A stretch of DNA of 7,697 nt from Deltaproteobacteria bacterium RIFOXYA12_FULL_61_11. Lineage in GTDB: Bacteria > Bdellovibrionota_F > JAHFAK01 > YA12-FULL-61-11. The stretch spans positions 1 through 7,697 of the forward strand of contig MGSU01000200.1 of NCBI GenBank assembly GCA_001799195.1, read 5' to 3'. The position numbers were made by a program, and so were the translations under genes. The notes beneath the pieces were generated by a model, which worked only from the letters and a program-made list of their open reading frames with translations, made no database searches and was not told the origin of the DNA. This document shows positions 1 to 7,697 of the stretch, piece by piece. Numbering within the stretch: the stretch's first letter is position 1; the number at the start of each line of letters is the position of its first letter.

Positions 1-312
1 CAGTCTTTTCAGCGCCGCGCGAGGACGGGAGAGGTGCGCCCGCGAGACGAGGGTTGTGGGTTGCAAGGTGTCTTTTTAATCTTTTTCAACGGCTGCTGAC
101 AGTATCATTGAAATGCTGATGACGCAGGGAGAAGATCTTCGGTAGAGCAAAGTCCAACTTGGTGTTGTTGGTGTTGGTGGTGGTGGTGTTGGTGCTCAAC
201 TTGGTGTTGCTGTGTTGGTGCTCATCGGCAAGAGAGCGCCACGCGGATCCCCCGAGCCAGGGGTAAAACGGCAAGCGAGGAAGAGCTTTTCCTAAAGCCT
301 TGTTTTTTGAAC
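1..312. other. Non-coding region downstream of the operon
   Basis: Beyond the membrane-protein stop codon there is no convincing gene. An open frame of 91 codons (86-361, minus strand) starts with TTG inside the membrane-protein gene and reads through the low-complexity tract as an Asn/Thr-rich run, so it is not supported. I found no stem-loop followed by a T-run in the minus direction, so the operon's terminator is not identified. The left end contains two T-runs (71-76 and 80-85) in an otherwise GC-rich stretch. Confidence 0.55.
155..224. repeat. GT-rich low-complexity repeat tract
   Basis: A 70-base tract built from GTT, GGT and related short units. Two 13-base exact repeats interlock in it: CAACTTGGTGTTG at 155-167 and 197-209, and GTGTTGGTGCTCA at 186-198 and 212-224, with a (GGT)n stretch between. 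The plus strand is almost free of C and A here. It looks like a slippage-prone minisatellite downstream of the operon's last gene. No function is visible. Confidence 0.75.
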
Positions 313-1688: not shown

Positions 1689-1693
1689 CTCCT
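1689..1693 (-). promoter_or_regulatory. Ribosome binding site overlapping the hydratase stop codon
   Basis: AGGAG, whose first base is the last base of the TGA stop of the DUF35-MaoC gene, stands five bases before the GTG start of the membrane-protein gene. An ATG four bases nearer on the same strand (ending at 1688) opens a frame that stops after two codons, so the GTG is the usable start. The overlap points to translational coupling. Confidence 0.65.
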
Positions 1694-2592
1694 CACCCCT
1701 TGCGCGGCGGGAGGACCACGGCCCAGCCGGTGGCGACGAGCTGGCCGTGCTGGTTGGTGAAGTCGCAGCGCAGCTTGACCCTCTTATGCTCGGCCTGCTT
1801 CTCCTCGACCGTGGCCTTGGCCGTGATGGTGTCGCCGAAGAAGGTCGGCGCCTTGAAGGCGCACTGCACTTCCACGGCCAGGGTGCCCAGGCCTGGCAGC
1901 TTCATGCCCAGGACCGGCGCGATCAGTGATTGCGGCAGTGCGCCGTGGGCGATGCGCGTGCCAAAAGCCGTGGTCTTGGCGTATTCCTCATTCATGTGCA
2001 AGGGGTTGAAGTCGCCGGAGATGCCGGCGAAGAGGTAGACGTCGGTCTCGGTGATGGTCTTGGTGAAGGAGGCCGTCATGCCTAGTTCGAGTTCCTCGTA
2101 CGAGTATCCCAGCTCCTGGCGCGGTTTGCCGGCCGGAGCGAAGTGGTCGATGGCGAGGATGGTCGGCTGTGGGTCTTTCGCATAGACTGCCTTGACCTCG
2201 AGCCCAACCCGTACCTCGGAGGGGGCGAGGCCCTTCAGCAGGTGGACCAGGCTCGAGTCGGCGCCGTCGAGGGCGACGAGGGCCAGGATATAGGGCGGCG
2301 GACAAGGCTGGTAGGGTTCGGCGTAGCGCACCACGGTGAAGCCCCGGACCGTGCCGGTACCCGGCAGTTCGATCCACTCGTCGCAGGGGGCGTCGAGGTG
2401 ATGCTCGCAGTGCGAGCGGGGCGGCACGAAGACCTTCTTGCAGCGCGAGCAGCGCCGGCCGAGCAGCTTCCTGCGGTCGCGAAGGGAGACCAGGAACTCG
2501 CTGCCGAGCGTGCCGGCGAAATACTGGTAGGGTAAAGCCAGCTTGCCCTCGACCGAGAAGGCGTCGCTCTCGCTGTAGCTGAACTGGTTCAT
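1693..2592 (-). CDS. DUF35 (zinc ribbon/OB-fold)-MaoC enoyl-CoA hydratase fusion
   Basis: A 299-residue two-domain protein. Residues about 20-155 are DUF35: a zinc ribbon with Cys48, Cys51, Cys62 and a fourth ligand that is probably His65 (or Cys70), since the usual second CxxC reads CEHH; then an OB-fold. Residues about 163-299 form a MaoC/hydratase-2 hot-dog domain with the catalytic Asp194 and His199 in SGDFNPLH, followed by RIAHG (213-217). The spacing matches (R)-specific hydratases, so trans-2-enoyl-CoA hydration to the 3-hydroxyacyl-CoA is likely. The steroid enzyme subunit ChsH2 also joins MaoC and DUF35 and recruits the thiolase-fold aldolase Ltp2, but there MaoC comes first; here the order is reversed. 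GGAGG stands four bases before the ATG, and the ligase stop is 27 bases upstream. Domain calls are strong; the substrate is not known. Confidence 0.93.
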   Translation of the reverse strand: MNQFSYSESDAFSVEGKLALPYQYFAGTLGSEFLVSLRDRRKLLGRRCSRCKKVFVPPRSHCEHHLDAPCDEWIELPGTGTVRGFTVVRYAEPYQPCPPPYILALVALDGADSSLVHLLKGLAPSEVRVGLEVKAVYAKDPQPTILAIDHFAPAGKPRQELGYSYEELELGMTASFTKTITETDVYLFAGISGDFNPLHMNEEYAKTTAFGTRIAHGALPQSLIAPVLGMKLPGLGTLAVEVQCAFKAPTFFGDTITAKATVEEKQAEHKRVKLRCDFTNQHGQLVATGWAVVLPPRKG

Positions 2593-2619: not shown

Positions 2620-5370
2620 TCAGTCGACAAAGGTGAAATGCACGAGGTCGGTGATCGCGCCCGTGCGGTGTTCGGCCCAGACCGGCCGCACCCGGGCGCC
2701 CTTGCGGATCCGGGAGAGGTCGGAGCAGTCGAGTTCGTGCCAGAATACGTCGTTGCCGCGGCAGCCGTCGAGCAGGATGAAGGCCGTGCAGTACGGGGTC
2801 TCGCGGCTCTCGCCGGTGAGCGGGTCCGGGCTGGCATAGTAGACCAGGTCGTAGTTGCCGACCGTGCCCTCGGGGCCAACCTCGACGAGTTCCGTGGCGC
2901 GCACGCGACAGACGGCGCAAGCCTCGCGCGGTGGGGTCTGCAGGCGGCCGCAGCGCGGGCAGCGGTTGGCGAGGATGCGTTGGTGATCGCGCAGTTCGGC
3001 GAGGAACTTGCCCATCAGTGGCCCGGTGTCGAAGCGCTGATCGATGGACAGCACCTGTCGCAGGACGAGCAGCTCGGGCGGGGGTTGTGCAGCTCCGGGA
3101 GCCTCGGGCGGACGGTAGCGGGAGAAGAGCCGCGCCGATTTGGCGACCAGCGACGCGTCGCCCTCGACCTTGATCCTGCCGGTGGTGAAGGCGGTCATTC
3201 CGTCGAGCTTCCCGAGATTGAGGTCGAGGAAGTCGGCCGCGGAGACGATCGTGGTGACCTCGGGACGGTCCAGGCCCTCGGTCACGGTGACTTTGCCGGC
3301 GGCGATGTTCACGGTCCAGCGGCCACCGCCCTCGCCCGTGAGGTCGTACCCGAGGCGCATGGAGACGCCCGCGAGGCGGTCGGCCTTGGCCCGCCCCGGC
3401 AGGGTGGCGAAAACATGGGCGACCGTCGCCCCCGGAGGTGGGCTCGGGGAGGCTGCTGGGAGGGGAGTTACCGGAGCGGGAGTCCCGTCGGTTCGAGCCT
3501 CTGCAGCTTCGCGGGGACGGTACTTGGTAAACACCTTGGTGGCCTTGAGCAGCAAGGAAACATTGCCCTCGGCCTTGATCTTGCCCGAGGTGAAGGCGGT
3601 CATACCGTCGAGCGTGCCGAGGTTGAGGTCGAGGAAGTCCCTCGCCGTCATGGTCACGGTCACGTCGGTCGCGCCGAGCCCGGGGGTGACGACGACTTTG
3701 CCCTTGGCGACCGCGACCGTCCATTCCCCGCCGCCGGGGCCGGTGAGGCGATATCCATAGGTCGCGGTGAGGCCGGCCGCCCCCTTGGGATCGATCCGCG
3801 TCGGCATGGTCTCGAAGACATGGGCCGCGTTCGGGACCTCGGTCCGGGGTTTCTTGGGCCGCGGGACGAGTCCCCACTCGCGCAGCACCTTCTTGAGGAC
3901 CTTGCCGACCGGATTGCGCGGCAGGTCCTGGTCCAGGAGTTCGACGTAGCGCGGTACCTTGTAGTCGGCGAGGCGCTCCCGGCAGAACGCGAGGACCTCT
4001 TCCTCGGTCAGGCTCTCGTCCGACGGTACGATGAAGACCTTGACCTCCTCCCCGCGGACCGGGTCGGGCACGCCGATGGTCGCGGCCTCCTGCACCTTGG
4101 GATGCCCCGCGAGGCAGTTGTCGACCTCCTTGGGATAGATGTTCTCGCCGCCGCGGATGATCATGTCCTTGATGCGATCCACGAGGTAGACGTAGCCGTC
4201 CTCGTCCTTGTAACCGACGTCGCCGGTGTGCAGCCACCCGCCGGCCAGCGTGGCCGCGGTGTCTTCGGGCCGACCGTGATAACCGACCATGACGTTCTCG
4301 CCGCGGATCGCGAGCTCTCCGCGTTGCCCGACCGGCAGGATCCGGTCCTCGGGATCGAAGATCTCGACCTCCTGTCCGGGGAGGGGCAGGCCGATCGAAC
4401 CGACCTTGCGCACCCCGTCGCGCGGATTGATCGTGCTCACGCAGGTCCCCTCGGTCAGGCCGTAGCCCTCGACAATGGGGATGCCGAAGGTCTCTTCGAA
4501 GCGGCGCATGGTCTCGGCGGTGAGGGGCGCGGCGCCGCAGATGCCGAAGCGTAGCGAGGAGAGGTCGTGCTGTTGCCTGCCGGGATCTGAGAGCAGGATC
4601 TGGTAGACCGCGGGCACGGCAGACCAGAAATTGACCTTGTGCTCGGCGACCACCTCCCAGAACTCCGAGGCGCTGAAGCGCTGGCGGAGGACGACCTCGA
4701 TGCCGGAGCGCATGCCGAAGATCGAGGTGAGCATGGCGTTGACGTGGAACAGGGGCAGGAAAACCAGCATGGTCGCAGAGTCCTCGACGTGCAGGGCGGC
4801 GCCGATGCCGTTGAGGTCGGCGAGCACGTTGCGGTGCGAGAGGAGCACGCCCTTGGGGTTGCCCGTGGTACCTGAGGTGTAGAAGATGAAGGCCAGGTCT
4901 TCGGGTCCGAGCGGCACCTCGGGGGCAGGTGCCGCTCGTTCGAGCAGGCGTTCGTATGAGGCGTGCCCGGACACCGGCTCGGCGCCGAGCACGATCACCG
5001 TGCGCAGGGCAGGACAGGCTGGTTGGATTTGCTCGACGAGGGGCAGGAACTGCCGGTCCACGATGATGGCCGTGCCGCCGGAATCGCCGAGCAGGTACTG
5101 CACCTCCGGTGCCTTCCAGAAGGTGTTGATCGGCCCGGCGATGGCACCAATGGCCTGGATGGCGAAGTACGAGACCAGCACGGCAGGGTCGTTCTGGGCC
5201 AGGACATGGACGACCTCCCCCTTGCCGATACCCAGCGAGGTGAGGCCGTTGGCCAGGGCGAAGACCCGCCGGGCGAACTCCCGGTAACTCGTGGGTTGGC
5301 CGTAGTAGTGCAAGTAGGTCTTCTCGTCATGGCGTTGTGCAGCTTCGGTGAGGTAGTCGCGCAGGTTCAT
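2620..5370 (-). CDS. Acyl-CoA ligase fused to two SCP2 domains and a DUF35 zinc-ribbon/OB-fold domain
   Basis: A 916-residue fusion, far longer than the 500-560 residues of stand-alone ANL ligases. Residues 1-510 are an AMP-forming acyl-CoA synthetase: P-loop YTSGTTGNPKG (164-174), GYGLTEGT (302-309), GWLHTGD (378-384), hinge DRIKDMIIRGGENIYP (398-413) and the C-terminal catalytic Lys490 in NPVGK. It should turn a carboxylic acid plus ATP and CoA into an acyl-CoA. Residues 515-619 and 650-754 are two SCP2 sterol-carrier domains, joined by a Pro/Ala-rich linker. Residues about 780-916 are DUF35, with ribbon cysteines 804, 807, 818 and 821 and then an OB-fold. DUF35 domains dock onto thiolase-fold enzymes, and two such genes lie just upstream. 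The start at 5370 follows AAGGAGG; an in-frame ATG at 5388 would add six residues. Substrate is unknown; SCP2 suggests a bulky lipophilic acid. Probably cytoplasmic. Confidence 0.95.
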   Translation of the reverse strand: MNLRDYLTEAAQRHDEKTYLHYYGQPTSYREFARRVFALANGLTSLGIGKGEVVHVLAQNDPAVLVSYFAIQAIGAIAGPINTFWKAPEVQYLLGDSGGTAIIVDRQFLPLVEQIQPACPALRTVIVLGAEPVSGHASYERLLERAAPAPEVPLGPEDLAFIFYTSGTTGNPKGVLLSHRNVLADLNGIGAALHVEDSATMLVFLPLFHVNAMLTSIFGMRSGIEVVLRQRFSASEFWEVVAEHKVNFWSAVPAVYQILLSDPGRQQHDLSSLRFGICGAAPLTAETMRRFEETFGIPIVEGYGLTEGTCVSTINPRDGVRKVGSIGLPLPGQEVEIFDPEDRILPVGQRGELAIRGENVMVGYHGRPEDTAATLAGGWLHTGDVGYKDEDGYVYLVDRIKDMIIRGGENIYPKEVDNCLAGHPKVQEAATIGVPDPVRGEEVKVFIVPSDESLTEEEVLAFCRERLADYKVPRYVELLDQDLPRNPVGKVLKKVLREWGLVPRPKKPRTEVPNAAHVFETMPTRIDPKGAAGLTATYGYRLTGPGGGEWTVAVAKGKVVVTPGLGATDVTVTMTARDFLDLNLGTLDGMTAFTSGKIKAEGNVSLLLKATKVFTKYRPREAAEARTDGTPAPVTPLPAASPSPPPGATVAHVFATLPGRAKADRLAGVSMRLGYDLTGEGGGRWTVNIAAGKVTVTEGLDRPEVTTIVSAADFLDLNLGKLDGMTAFTTGRIKVEGDASLVAKSARLFSRYRPPEAPGAAQPPPELLVLRQVLSIDQRFDTGPLMGKFLAELRDHQRILANRCPRCGRLQTPPREACAVCRVRATELVEVGPEGTVGNYDLVYYASPDPLTGESRETPYCTAFILLDGCRGNDVFWHELDCSDLSRIRKGARVRPVWAEHRTGAITDLVHFTFVD
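3109..3423 (-). repeat. SCP2 domain copy 2 inside the ligase fusion
   Basis: This encodes residues 650-754, from VAHVFATLPG to SRYRP, after a Pro/Ala/Ser-rich linker of about 30 residues. Within it, positions 3184-3234 match 3589-3639 of copy 1 with only about four differences in 51 bases, while the rest is much more diverged. The short near-identical block covers the most conserved protein segment, so constraint or partial gene conversion could explain it. Confidence 0.88.
3514..3828 (-). repeat. SCP2 domain copy 1 inside the ligase fusion
   Basis: This encodes residues 515-619 of the fusion, from AAHVFETMPT to TKYRP. It aligns without gaps to the second copy exactly 405 bases further along the gene, with 59 of 105 residues identical by hand count. 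Shared landmarks are GGG-WTV, the DFLDLNLG-LDGMTAFT block and the KYRP or RYRP end. SCP2 domains bind sterols, fatty acyl chains and acyl-CoAs in a hydrophobic tunnel. Confidence 0.88.
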
Positions 5371-5375
5371 CTCGT

Positions 5376-5382
5376 CCTCCTT
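5376..5382 (-). promoter_or_regulatory. Ribosome binding site deciding the ligase start
   Basis: AAGGAGG lies five bases before the ATG at 5370. The alternative ATG at 5388, four bases after the upstream stop codon, has only a weak GAAGA at a long distance. The strong site also falls inside the codons of the longer form, so initiation at 5370 is favoured. Confidence 0.75.
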
Positions 5383-5392
5383 GGCCATCTGA

Positions 5393-6586
5393 TCAACGTC
5401 TTCCCGGCGGTTCGCTGCCCAGCAGCATGAGTACGGTCCACAGGGTGCCGCCGAAGCCCGAGGCCAGAGCCTTTTTCACCTCGCGGCGGAGCTGGTGGTC
5501 CCCGGCCGTTCGGCGGATCTGGGCGGCCGCCTCGGCCACGCGGATCAACGCCGTGGCGCCGATCGGGTTGGAAGCGATCACGCCGCCCGAGGGGTTGAGC
5601 GGCAAGAGTCCTTCGGGCGTGAGTTGATCCTCCTCGACCAAACGCAGATGCCGATCACCTTCCAGCAGCAAGAACTCGCGCAGCCACTCCACGCCCCACC
5701 AACTCGAAGGGTCGTACATCTCGAACACGTCGAGTTCGGCCAGGGGATCTTTGAGGTCGTTGCGACGGAAGAGCCGCTCGGCGGCGTAACGCATGGTGCC
5801 GACCTCGCGCTGACCGCCCCAGAGCGTGAAGGTCTCCTCGCGGTGCACGGTGAGGTGGTCGTGGACCCAGGCGGCCTTGGCCCCGAGTTCGGCGATCTTG
5901 TCCTCGGAGGCGAAGATCACGGCACAGGCCCCGTCGCTCTGCGAGCACATGTCGATCATACGCAGCTCGCCCACCAGCGGCGGTGAACCCGAGGCCAGCT
6001 CGTCGAGCTGGTCCATGGTCAGACCGAAGCGGCGGTGGGCGTGGCGGTTGCGCATCGCGTTCTGGTCCATCAAAATGCGGTACTTCATCGCTACCCTGCG
6101 CGCCCGCTCGGCGCCGAATTCGTCGATCAGCTCCTGCGCGGCGATGCCGGTCAGGGCTCCGGTCTGGAGCTGTCGGCCCCACAGCGGATCGGCCATGTTG
6201 GTGATCCCGCCCGTGGTGTGCCCCTCTTGCAGTTTCTCGAAACCCACGGCCAGGACCACCTCGTGCAAACCCGAGGCGCAGAGATTGTCCGCGGCGCAGG
6301 CCAAGGTCGCGCCCGTGGTTCCGCCCGTGGTCACGCGTAGGCACTCCTTGCCGAAAGCGCCGGTGCCGAGGACGTGCCAACAGTCCGGCTGGTGGACCAT
6401 CTCGAACAGCTCCATGTTGCCGTGAACCACGCAATCGAGGTCCTCGACGGCTAGCCCCGCATCCGCGAGTGCTGCGGCCACGGCTTCTCGGATCAGCTCC
6501 GGCTGGTTGACGTCCTCGCGGTGGCTGGAATGTACCGTCTGCCCGGTGCCGATGATGCCCACGTTCCTGTTGCGGCGATGTTCCAT
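5393..6586 (-). CDS. Thiolase-superfamily protein (acetyl-CoA acetyltransferase-like), complete, catalytic residues replaced
   Basis: A 397-residue protein, the usual thiolase length. The ATG at 6586 is chosen because GGAGG precedes it by six bases and the N-terminus (NVGIIGTGQT, residues 8-17) matches the thiolase opening strand. The frame stays open to 6898, but that extension would overlap the upstream gene. The nucleophile motif CASG is replaced by GTTG (89-92), the GHP histidine by SNP (339-341, within NPSGGVIASNPIGAT), and the C-terminal Cys by Phe378. The NEAF/HDCF region reads MYDPSSWW (290-297). The acyl-CoA binding scaffold is kept while the known Claisen chemistry residues are gone. 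It lies between the other thiolase-like gene (35-base gap) and the ligase fusion, so the two thiolase-like proteins may form a heteromer. Alternatives are an aldolase of the Ltp2 kind or a non-catalytic partner. The fold is firmly assigned; activity and substrate are inference. Confidence 0.92.
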   Translation of the reverse strand: MEHRRNRNVGIIGTGQTVHSSHREDVNQPELIREAVAAALADAGLAVEDLDCVVHGNMELFEMVHQPDCWHVLGTGAFGKECLRVTTGGTTGATLACAADNLCASGLHEVVLAVGFEKLQEGHTTGGITNMADPLWGRQLQTGALTGIAAQELIDEFGAERARRVAMKYRILMDQNAMRNRHAHRRFGLTMDQLDELASGSPPLVGELRMIDMCSQSDGACAVIFASEDKIAELGAKAAWVHDHLTVHREETFTLWGGQREVGTMRYAAERLFRRNDLKDPLAELDVFEMYDPSSWWGVEWLREFLLLEGDRHLRLVEEDQLTPEGLLPLNPSGGVIASNPIGATALIRVAEAAAQIRRTAGDHQLRREVKKALASGFGGTLWTVLMLLGSEPPGRR

Positions 6587-6621: not shown

Positions 6622-7697
6622 TCACTCGTCCCGTTCCAGCACGATCGCACAGTGGAACTGCCCGGCAGGGCCCATGGTGCCGTGGGCCAAACCGCGGCGG
6701 GCATTTTTGATCTGGTGTTGACCGGCTTTGCCCGAGAGCTGCAGGGCGATCTCTGCGACCCGGACGAGGCCTCCGAGGATCAGCGGATTGCCGGCCAGGA
6801 GACCGCCCGAGAGATTGACCTTCTGGAGGTCCGGACCTCCGGAGGCCAGCCAGGCTCCGCCCTTGCCCGCTTCGAGGAGCCCGAGCCCTTCGCACCACTG
6901 GGGGAGCTGGTGGGCGTACTGGTCCGAGACTTCCACGAGGTCGAAGGCCCTGGCCGGATGCTTGATGCCGGCCCGGGTATAAGCCCTACTTGCCGCGGCC
7001 GTGAGAGCCGCGCTCTGGGCGAGGTTGCGCTCGCCGAGGTGGAAGCCGTCCATGCTGTTGCCCACCCCCGTGATCCAGACCGGGGTGTCGGTGATGGCCC
7101 GCGCCCGATCGGCCGAGGCCAGCACCAACCCGATCGCGCCGTCGGTGACCGGATAGGCGTGGAGCGCGCGCAGCGGATCGCAGAGGAACGGGGAGGCGAG
7201 GACCTCGTCGACGGTGACCGGATCCAGACCATGCTGGCAGGGGTTGGCCATGGCCAAGCGGCGTGCCCTCGCGACCAGCTCGGCGAGGTTCCGGTCCGTG
7301 ACGTAGCTCTTGGCCATATAGGCCTGGGCCTGCAACGCCGCGGCCGCAAGGAAGTCCAGGCCGACCGGCCGGGTGTAGAAGGGGTCGAAGGCCAGGTGCG
7401 TGACCTGGTTGCGGCTCTTGGCCTGGGATTCCTTGCAATGGCCGACCACCAAAACCAGGTCGGCGTGGCCCGAGAGGATGGTGCTGAGGCCGTAGTACAC
7501 GGCCTGGGCGCCGTCCTGGGCGACCTTCTCCTCGCAGCGGTAGTGGGCGCCGAGCACATCGGTCATGGCATTGTCCGAGATGGTCCGGGCATCGAAGACA
7601 TCGTCGGAGACGCTGATCACGGTGCCGATGCCCTCGTCCTCGGCGAAATCCAACCCGGTCTGGCCGAGCAGGTTTTCGACCACGGGCAGGACCATGC
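6622..7697 (-). CDS. Thiolase-superfamily protein (SCP-x/lipid-transfer type), 5' end missing, lacks catalytic Cys
   Basis: This is the first visible gene of the operon. Its start lies beyond the window, and about 357 residues can be read, numbered here from the Met codon at 7695, which is probably internal. The fold shows in the region equivalent to the thiolase nucleophile loop (residues 56-86), a late NLSGGLLAGNP motif (294-304) and the C-terminal glycine-rich strand (335-355). The canonical catalytic positions are replaced: the CASG nucleophile motif reads AQDG (59-62), the GHP histidine motif reads GNP (302-304), and the final Cys loop has no Cys in place. A Tyr sits in SDQYAH (257-262), where the family normally has an NEAF or HDCF motif. 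Ordinary thiolysis is therefore unlikely; a retro-aldolase such as Ltp2, or a structural subunit, fits better. The gene ends 35 bases before the paralogous thiolase-like gene. Superfamily assignment is secure from motifs; the reaction is unknown. Confidence 0.88.
   Translation of the reverse strand, partial: MVLPVVENLLGQTGLDFAEDEGIGTVISVSDDVFDARTISDNAMTDVLGAHYRCEEKVAQDGAQAVYYGLSTILSGHADLVLVVGHCKESQAKSRNQVTHLAFDPFYTRPVGLDFLAAAALQAQAYMAKSYVTDRNLAELVARARRLAMANPCQHGLDPVTVDEVLASPFLCDPLRALHAYPVTDGAIGLVLASADRARAITDTPVWITGVGNSMDGFHLGERNLAQSAALTAAASRAYTRAGIKHPARAFDLVEVSDQYAHQLPQWCEGLGLLEAGKGGAWLASGGPDLQKVNLSGGLLAGNPLILGGLVRVAEIALQLSGKAGQHQIKNARRGLAHGTMGPAGQFHCAIVLERDE

Follow-up and report, generated by a model that had tools for sequence, protein, structure and literature searches.

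Which task could be served by one polypeptide that joins an acyl-CoA ligase, two SCP2 domains and a DUF35 domain? The question is raised by P0001, encoded in a 7,697-nucleotide stretch (the window) that covers 7697 of the about 7819 bases of its contig. The initial annotation had placed these four domains in a single polypeptide, and Pfam matches, an intact frame and matches to DUF35 structures bear this out. We compared P0001 and its neighbors with related loci and with characterized thiolase-fold complexes.

The locus and the reading frame of P0001

Two thiolase-fold proteins, ThA and ThB, are encoded upstream of P0001, and P0002 is encoded downstream:

1693..2592, minus strand: P0002, DUF35B (2128-2592) and a MaoC hydratase (1696-2115) (PF01796, PF12172, PF01575)
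2620..5388, minus strand: P0001, ligase-SCP2-SCP2-DUF35A fusion (open frame, end-to-end homologues, Shine-Dalgarno sequence before 5370)
5393..6586, minus strand: P0003 (ThB), thiolase-fold protein (Pfam PF22691/PF00108; alignment A1; PDB and Foldseek matches to SCP2-thiolase, Ltp2 and Sal)
6622..7697, minus strand: P0004 (ThA), second thiolase-fold protein, without the Cys nucleophile and with its N terminus outside the window (contig to 7818)

Because all four genes lie on one strand with intergenic gaps of 22–35 bases, they look like one operon.

The frame of P0001 (2620-5388, minus strand) runs without interruption for 922 codons from an upstream ATG and for 916 codons from the ATG at 5370. 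The latter is the likely translation start, since an AAGGAGG Shine-Dalgarno sequence lies immediately 5' of it and the homologues begin with the same MNL. Nine homologues align with P0001 from end to end at 56–60% identity, which rules out a frame error as the source of the fusion.

Domains of P0001

The domains were located as follows:

2623..3072, minus strand: DUF35A (PF12172, PF01796; free-standing DUF35 in G036; PDB 6esq_E, 3irb)
2677-2886, minus strand: OB fold of DUF35A
2890-2997, minus strand: zinc ribbon of DUF35A, CPRC-x10-CAVC
3103..3432, minus strand: SCP2 copy 2, 55% identical to copy 1 (Pfam PF02036)
3433..3513, minus strand: Pro/Ala-rich linker between the SCP2 copies, APVTPLPAASPSPPPG (from the sequence; pLDDT <50 at residues 625-652)
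3496..3846, minus strand: SCP2 copy 1 (Pfam PF02036, two stretches; groups with the ligase-borne SCP2 of L045/L051)
3874..5370, minus strand: ANL acyl-CoA ligase, AMP-binding and AMP-binding_C (Pfam PF00501, PF13193; NCBIfam PRK06187 above cut-off; FadD13 among the matches)

With both domains (AMP-binding at residues 14-371, E 2e-96; AMP-binding_C at 421-496, E 2e-18), the P-loop and the C-terminal catalytic Lys, the ligase part has the make-up of a FadD-like ANL ligase. The motifs YTSGTTGNPKG and GYGLTEG and the C-terminal Lys of NPVGKVLKK are all intact, and YTSGTTG-PKG and this Lys are invariant in the alignment of P0001 homologues (A3). The SCP2 profile matches in two stretches, with a whole-protein E of 2e-29 and a score of 102.5 bits (cut-off 21.3).

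The C-terminal part shows the DUF35 order of a C4 zinc ribbon followed by an OB fold, the OB half being recognized through DUF35 structures. The zf-ChsH2 match (residues 798-833; E 7e-7, 29.4 bits) exceeds its cut-off of 23.2, whereas the OB_ChsH2_C match (residues 835-904; E 4e-4, 20.8 bits) lies below the Pfam cut-off of 27.1. This stretch matches the DUF35 structures 6esq_E and 3irb, and residues 773-922 are 60% identical to the free-standing DUF35 protein of G036. The structure model of P0001, made with few sequences in the alignment, is weak, with a mean pLDDT of 58.

Distribution and variants of the fusion

A first survey covered 386 genomes across phyla, with few per phylum and one other genome from the phylum of the window; in this thinly sampled set, no other genome had a ligase joined to SCP2-SCP2-DUF35. 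In a second survey, the ThB alignment was scanned against about 85,000 species genomes, and the best 80 of 178 matches gave at least 77 named loci. Ligase-SCP2(n)-DUF35A proteins with n = 1 to 3 were found at no fewer than 20 loci, the window included, so the layout is not singular. One SCP2 domain is present in at least 5 of these proteins, two in at least 10 and three in at least 5, counts that may be off where they come from short-read assemblies because repeats misassemble (as in L107).

Carriers other than the window are mostly Desulfobacterales (sulfate-reducing bacteria), in which the order ThA-ThB-[ligase-SCP2n-DUF35A]-[DUF35B-MaoC] recurs; complete genomes with the fusion are those of Desulfosarcina alkanivorans PL12 (L116, n = 2) and D. 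widdelii PP31 (L122, n = 3). The initial annotation knew of no characterized ligase of this layout, and the open-access literature likewise gave no description of a ligase-SCP2-DUF35 fusion (subscription journals lay outside the search). A paper on a limonene operon, considered as a possible account, concerns a different system. The ligase-SCP2-DUF35A fusion is real and conserved and, apparently, so far uncharacterized.

Elsewhere the parts are arranged differently. The ligase of G036 and G101 bears one SCP2 domain, and in G036, where the contig extends that far, DUF35A is a separate protein. SCP2-SCP2-DUF35A without a ligase occurs in G262, G126, G388, Spirochaetes and Syntrophaceae, and DUF35A is a lone protein in Phycisphaerae and Hydrogenedentes. 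In some close relatives (L132, L144 and L169), the ligase is missing at the position equivalent to P0001. At L158 (70-2022), ThB and DUF35A form one polypeptide of 650 residues, whose DUF35 lacks most zinc-ribbon cysteines. From these many fusion variants, DUF35 behaves as a plug for various partners. Every collected ligase-DUF35A fusion has at least one SCP2 domain, as do most ligase-free DUF35A proteins. Split versions of the fusion are seen in L104 and L107; the break in L107 interrupts the SCP2 repeat and seems to be a misassembly, and we do not take it for a natural split version.

SCP2 copies and the origin of the fusion

The history of the SCP2 copies differs between lineages. Within Desulfobacterales fusions, the copies share 80–95% identity, roughly what is seen between copies of different genomes, and therefore reflect recent duplication or homogenization; the three units of D. 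widdelii are spaced by exactly 339 bases and share 87–88% DNA identity. The SCP2 pair of the Spirochaete and Syntrophaceae proteins is old, since identity within most pairs is 23–43% and every copy pairs up with the corresponding copy of other genomes. The two copies in the window share 55% identity and fall together with the SCP2 that is attached to the ligase in L045/L051. For the SCP2 domains of D. widdelii, a close homologue, a match was obtained with the SCP2-like domain of peroxisomal MFE-2.

The ThB tree joins the window to G036 and a Hydrogenedentes/Phycisphaerae clade with support 0.87, and the Desulfobacterales fusions form a separate clade with support 0.93. This leaves two histories: an old fusion that some lines later split or lost, or two origins of the fusion. 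P0001 could have come about simply by the joining of a ligase-SCP2 gene to an SCP2-DUF35 gene, an origin that the SCP2 tree weakly supports (0.71–0.93); an old fusion with later splitting fits equally well.

P0002 and the second DUF35 domain

P0002 matches structures of (R)-enoyl-CoA hydratase and ChsH2 (DUF35), and its order, DUF35 N-terminal and MaoC C-terminal, is that of Shy. Its zinc ribbon (2388-2460, minus strand) reads CSRC-x10-CEHH and may be of the Cys3His type, while the G036 homologue has four Cys. The zinc site of Shy, the partner of Sal, is also Cys3His (PMC12329534).

DUF35B is fused to MaoC in at least 25 loci and to BKACE in at least 23 others, and both together occur in none. 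The DUF35B-BKACE proteins (e.g., L148:12413-13837) are found in Spirochaetes and Syntrophaceae, where Desulfobacterales have DUF35B-MaoC.

Loss of the thiolase cysteines in ThA and ThB

In all nine sequences of alignment A1, ThB carries TTGG at the position of the thiolase Cys, with Asn replacing the GHP His and Phe replacing the second Cys. In alignment A2, the CASG position of ThA shows no conserved Cys. The full thiolase set of Cys at CASG, His of GHP and second Cys is therefore present in neither protein. One motif of ThB stands out:

5696..5716, minus strand: Y291-D-P-S-S-W-W, aligned with thiolase HDCF, where Ltp2 has YDHF and Sal has YDCY

Ltp2 and Sal use the Tyr of YDHF/YDCY as catalytic base (PMC12329534). 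Y291-D292 is invariant in the nine ThB sequences and takes the place of the YDxx Tyr in an alignment made via HDCF of SCP2-thiolase rather than directly with Ltp2 or Sal. The third motif position is Pro in ThB, where Ltp2 has His and Sal has its catalytic acid Cys; because of this Pro, the chemistry of ThB may differ from that of Ltp2 and Sal. ThA also lacks the YD tyrosine, and its role may be structural. Fold comparison with the ThB model, which is weak (mean pLDDT 62), placed SCP2-thiolases on top, with Ltp2, Sal, BbsB and PhlC also listed.

Hydration followed by retro-aldol cleavage is favored, though not proven, because of the YD motif, the Shy-like P0002, acyl-CoA dehydrogenases in 44 of the 90 loci searched and the outcome of a query of the 90 collected loci for 3-hydroxyacyl-CoA dehydrogenase, which found none. 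An ordinary thiolytic β-oxidation of branched or long acyl chains, on a scaffold where ThA and ThB form a BbsAB-like thiolase heteromer with an unrecognized nucleophile, appears unlikely to us. The profiles of both proteins do match thiolases, including BbsB (7pxp), and acyl-CoA dehydrogenases and ligases accompany them in many of the operons, but the CASG Cys is kept in neither, ThB has lost the His and second Cys as well, and the collected loci yielded no 3-hydroxyacyl-CoA dehydrogenase, an enzyme that a gene elsewhere in the genome could provide.

We give somewhat less credit still to a pathway running in the building direction, in which ThA/ThB would condense acyl-CoAs or C-acylate like the DUF35-containing PhlABC and BKACE or MaoC would process the product. 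Two thiolase-fold proteins with a DUF35 are indeed the PhlABC layout (matches to 5m3k and 9vbt), and MaoC is replaced by BKACE in one clade. Against this, ThA and ThB do not have the active-site Cys that acyl transfer requires, and the same operons encode TetR regulators, several acyl-CoA dehydrogenases and acyl-CoA ligases, a gene content typical of catabolism.

A proposed DUF35-scaffolded hydratase/aldolase complex

The reading that we prefer, and to which we give about even chances, is a DUF35-scaffolded hydratase/aldolase complex that would shorten hydrophobic acyl-CoAs, with the SCP2 domains as tethered carriers. From the domain order, the operon, conservation, the cysteine loss, the YD motif and the L158 fusion, we infer the docking pairs, the carrier role, the retro-aldol chemistry and the substrate class. 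P0001 would be the activating and carrying arm of this multienzyme complex. Its DUF35A most likely docks onto ThB, because the parts are separate or differently fused elsewhere, including as ThB-DUF35A, and the DUF35 of P0002 would bring the MaoC enoyl-CoA hydratase, presumably onto ThA. The ligase would form the CoA ester of a hydrophobic acid, and the acyl chain would stay non-covalently bound to one to three SCP2 domains, which linkers would keep next to the complex. Meanwhile, acyl-CoA dehydrogenases and MaoC would produce the 3-hydroxyacyl-CoA, which ThB would cleave in a retro-aldol reaction that relies on a Tyr, like the cleavage of steroid side chains by Ltp2 and Sal.

Part of this had been anticipated: the operon, homology to known docking subunits and the ThB-DUF35A polypeptide all support the idea that DUF35 docks a thiolase-fold partner. 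The accompanying idea of a direct hand-over of the activated substrate to that partner found no support, as ThB lacks the thiolase cysteines and is most like retro-aldolases. Direct transfer from the ligase to ThB is unlikely because dehydrogenation and hydration must intervene; the retro-aldolase substrate forms only after these steps, for which acyl-CoA dehydrogenases and MaoC are encoded in the same operons.

Besides the Pro in the ThB motif and the missing YD tyrosine of ThA, a further point speaks against the proposed complex: in Spirochaete and Syntrophaceae operons (at least 23 loci), BKACE replaces MaoC on DUF35B, and a simple hydratase-aldolase picture does not account for DUF35B-BKACE. 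That the fusion is an economy of co-expression only, with independent domains and an SCP2 idle for ligase and ThB, would suit the separate genes of relatives and the ligase-free position in L132, L144 and L169, but is improbable given the SCP2 domain in all ligase-DUF35A fusions and most ligase-free DUF35A proteins and the sorting of DUF35B fusions by clade, with one of two enzymes each.

More tentatively than the hydratase/aldolase complex itself, we suggest a DUF35-docked assembly line of anaerobes, in which tandem, copy-variable SCP2 domains might serve as non-covalent carriers, as the ACPs of PUFA synthases do, and keep a very hydrophobic acyl-CoA from activation to cleavage by a cysteine-free thiolase-fold aldolase pair. 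If this is true, the culturable sulfate reducers Desulfosarcina alkanivorans and D. widdelii would offer a defined enzyme system for learning whether a lipid-carrier domain can hand on an activated acyl group inside a complex. DUF35 docking, known from steroid side-chain aldolases, would then extend to several bacterial phyla, with the dock fused to interchangeable partners: ligase, SCP2, MaoC and BKACE.

Comparison with known systems

The ligase-SCP2-DUF35A operon is a variant of DUF35-docked thiolase-fold complexes. Paired acyl-CoA dehydrogenases are a feature that the igr operon (ChsH1-ChsH2-Ltp2) shares with the operons here. ChsH1-ChsH2-Ltp2 (PDB 6OK1) likewise has a thiolase-fold aldolase docked by DUF35, but this complex contains neither SCP2 nor ligase, and the DUF35 of ChsH2 is C-terminal. 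Shy-Sal, the bile acid side-chain hydratase-aldolase of Comamonas testosteroni (PMC11321319, PMC12329534, PDB 9MYR), also combines a DUF35-MaoC protein with a YD-motif thiolase-fold partner, and Shy binds its aldolase Sal through DUF35 (PMC11321319). It differs in that the present operon has two thiolase-fold proteins and two DUF35 domains, the second with SCP2 and ligase, that the motif is YDCY rather than the YDPS of ThB, and that the relatives here are mostly anaerobes.

The benzoylsuccinyl-CoA thiolase BbsAB (PDB 7PXP) is from an anaerobe and pairs a DUF35 zinc subunit with a thiolase-fold subunit; BbsB, however, is a true thiolase, and fused SCP2, ligase and hydratase are absent. In SCP-x thiolase and peroxisomal MFE-2, SCP2 is joined to enzymes degrading branched or sterol-derived acyl-CoA, whereas here it lies between ligase and DUF35 in one to three tandem copies. 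The tandem ACPs of PUFA synthase (PMC3585217) are a variable number of near-identical carrier domains in series, a likeness of layout and not of homology; the SCP2 ligand would be held non-covalently.

Neighboring genes and other observations

In many Desulfobacterales, a second operon, ThA'-ThB'-SCP2-DUF35A' without a fused ligase, follows the first at L101, L118, L121, L125, L129, L159, L165 and L167. Spirochaete and Syntrophaceae clusters contain a CoA-transferase pair (PF01144; L148:15801-17577, L106, L110 and others) that adjoins an additional, diverged ThA/ThB/DUF35 set. A ligase-SCP2 protein of 637 residues with 47% identity (L013:1477-3390) is found in another phylum, unlinked to a ThA/ThB operon.

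A small PHP-domain protein (about 185 residues) is encoded directly 5' of ThA (L116:8077-8631, L045:16975-17562, L051:3879-4430 and others), and a PHP-like protein is present in 67 of the 90 loci searched. The gene had no match in the window's own genome, whose assembly is about 87% complete and whose contig ends at that point.

Within the window, P0005 (313-1683, minus strand; 456 residues) is hydrophobic and resembles a membrane protein; Pfam and NCBIfam searches with it gave no match. The GC content drops from about 67% in the operon to about 57% at P0005, and P0005 is probably unrelated to the operon. Downstream of P0005 lies a short low-complexity stretch rich in GTT/GGT (window positions 150-225).
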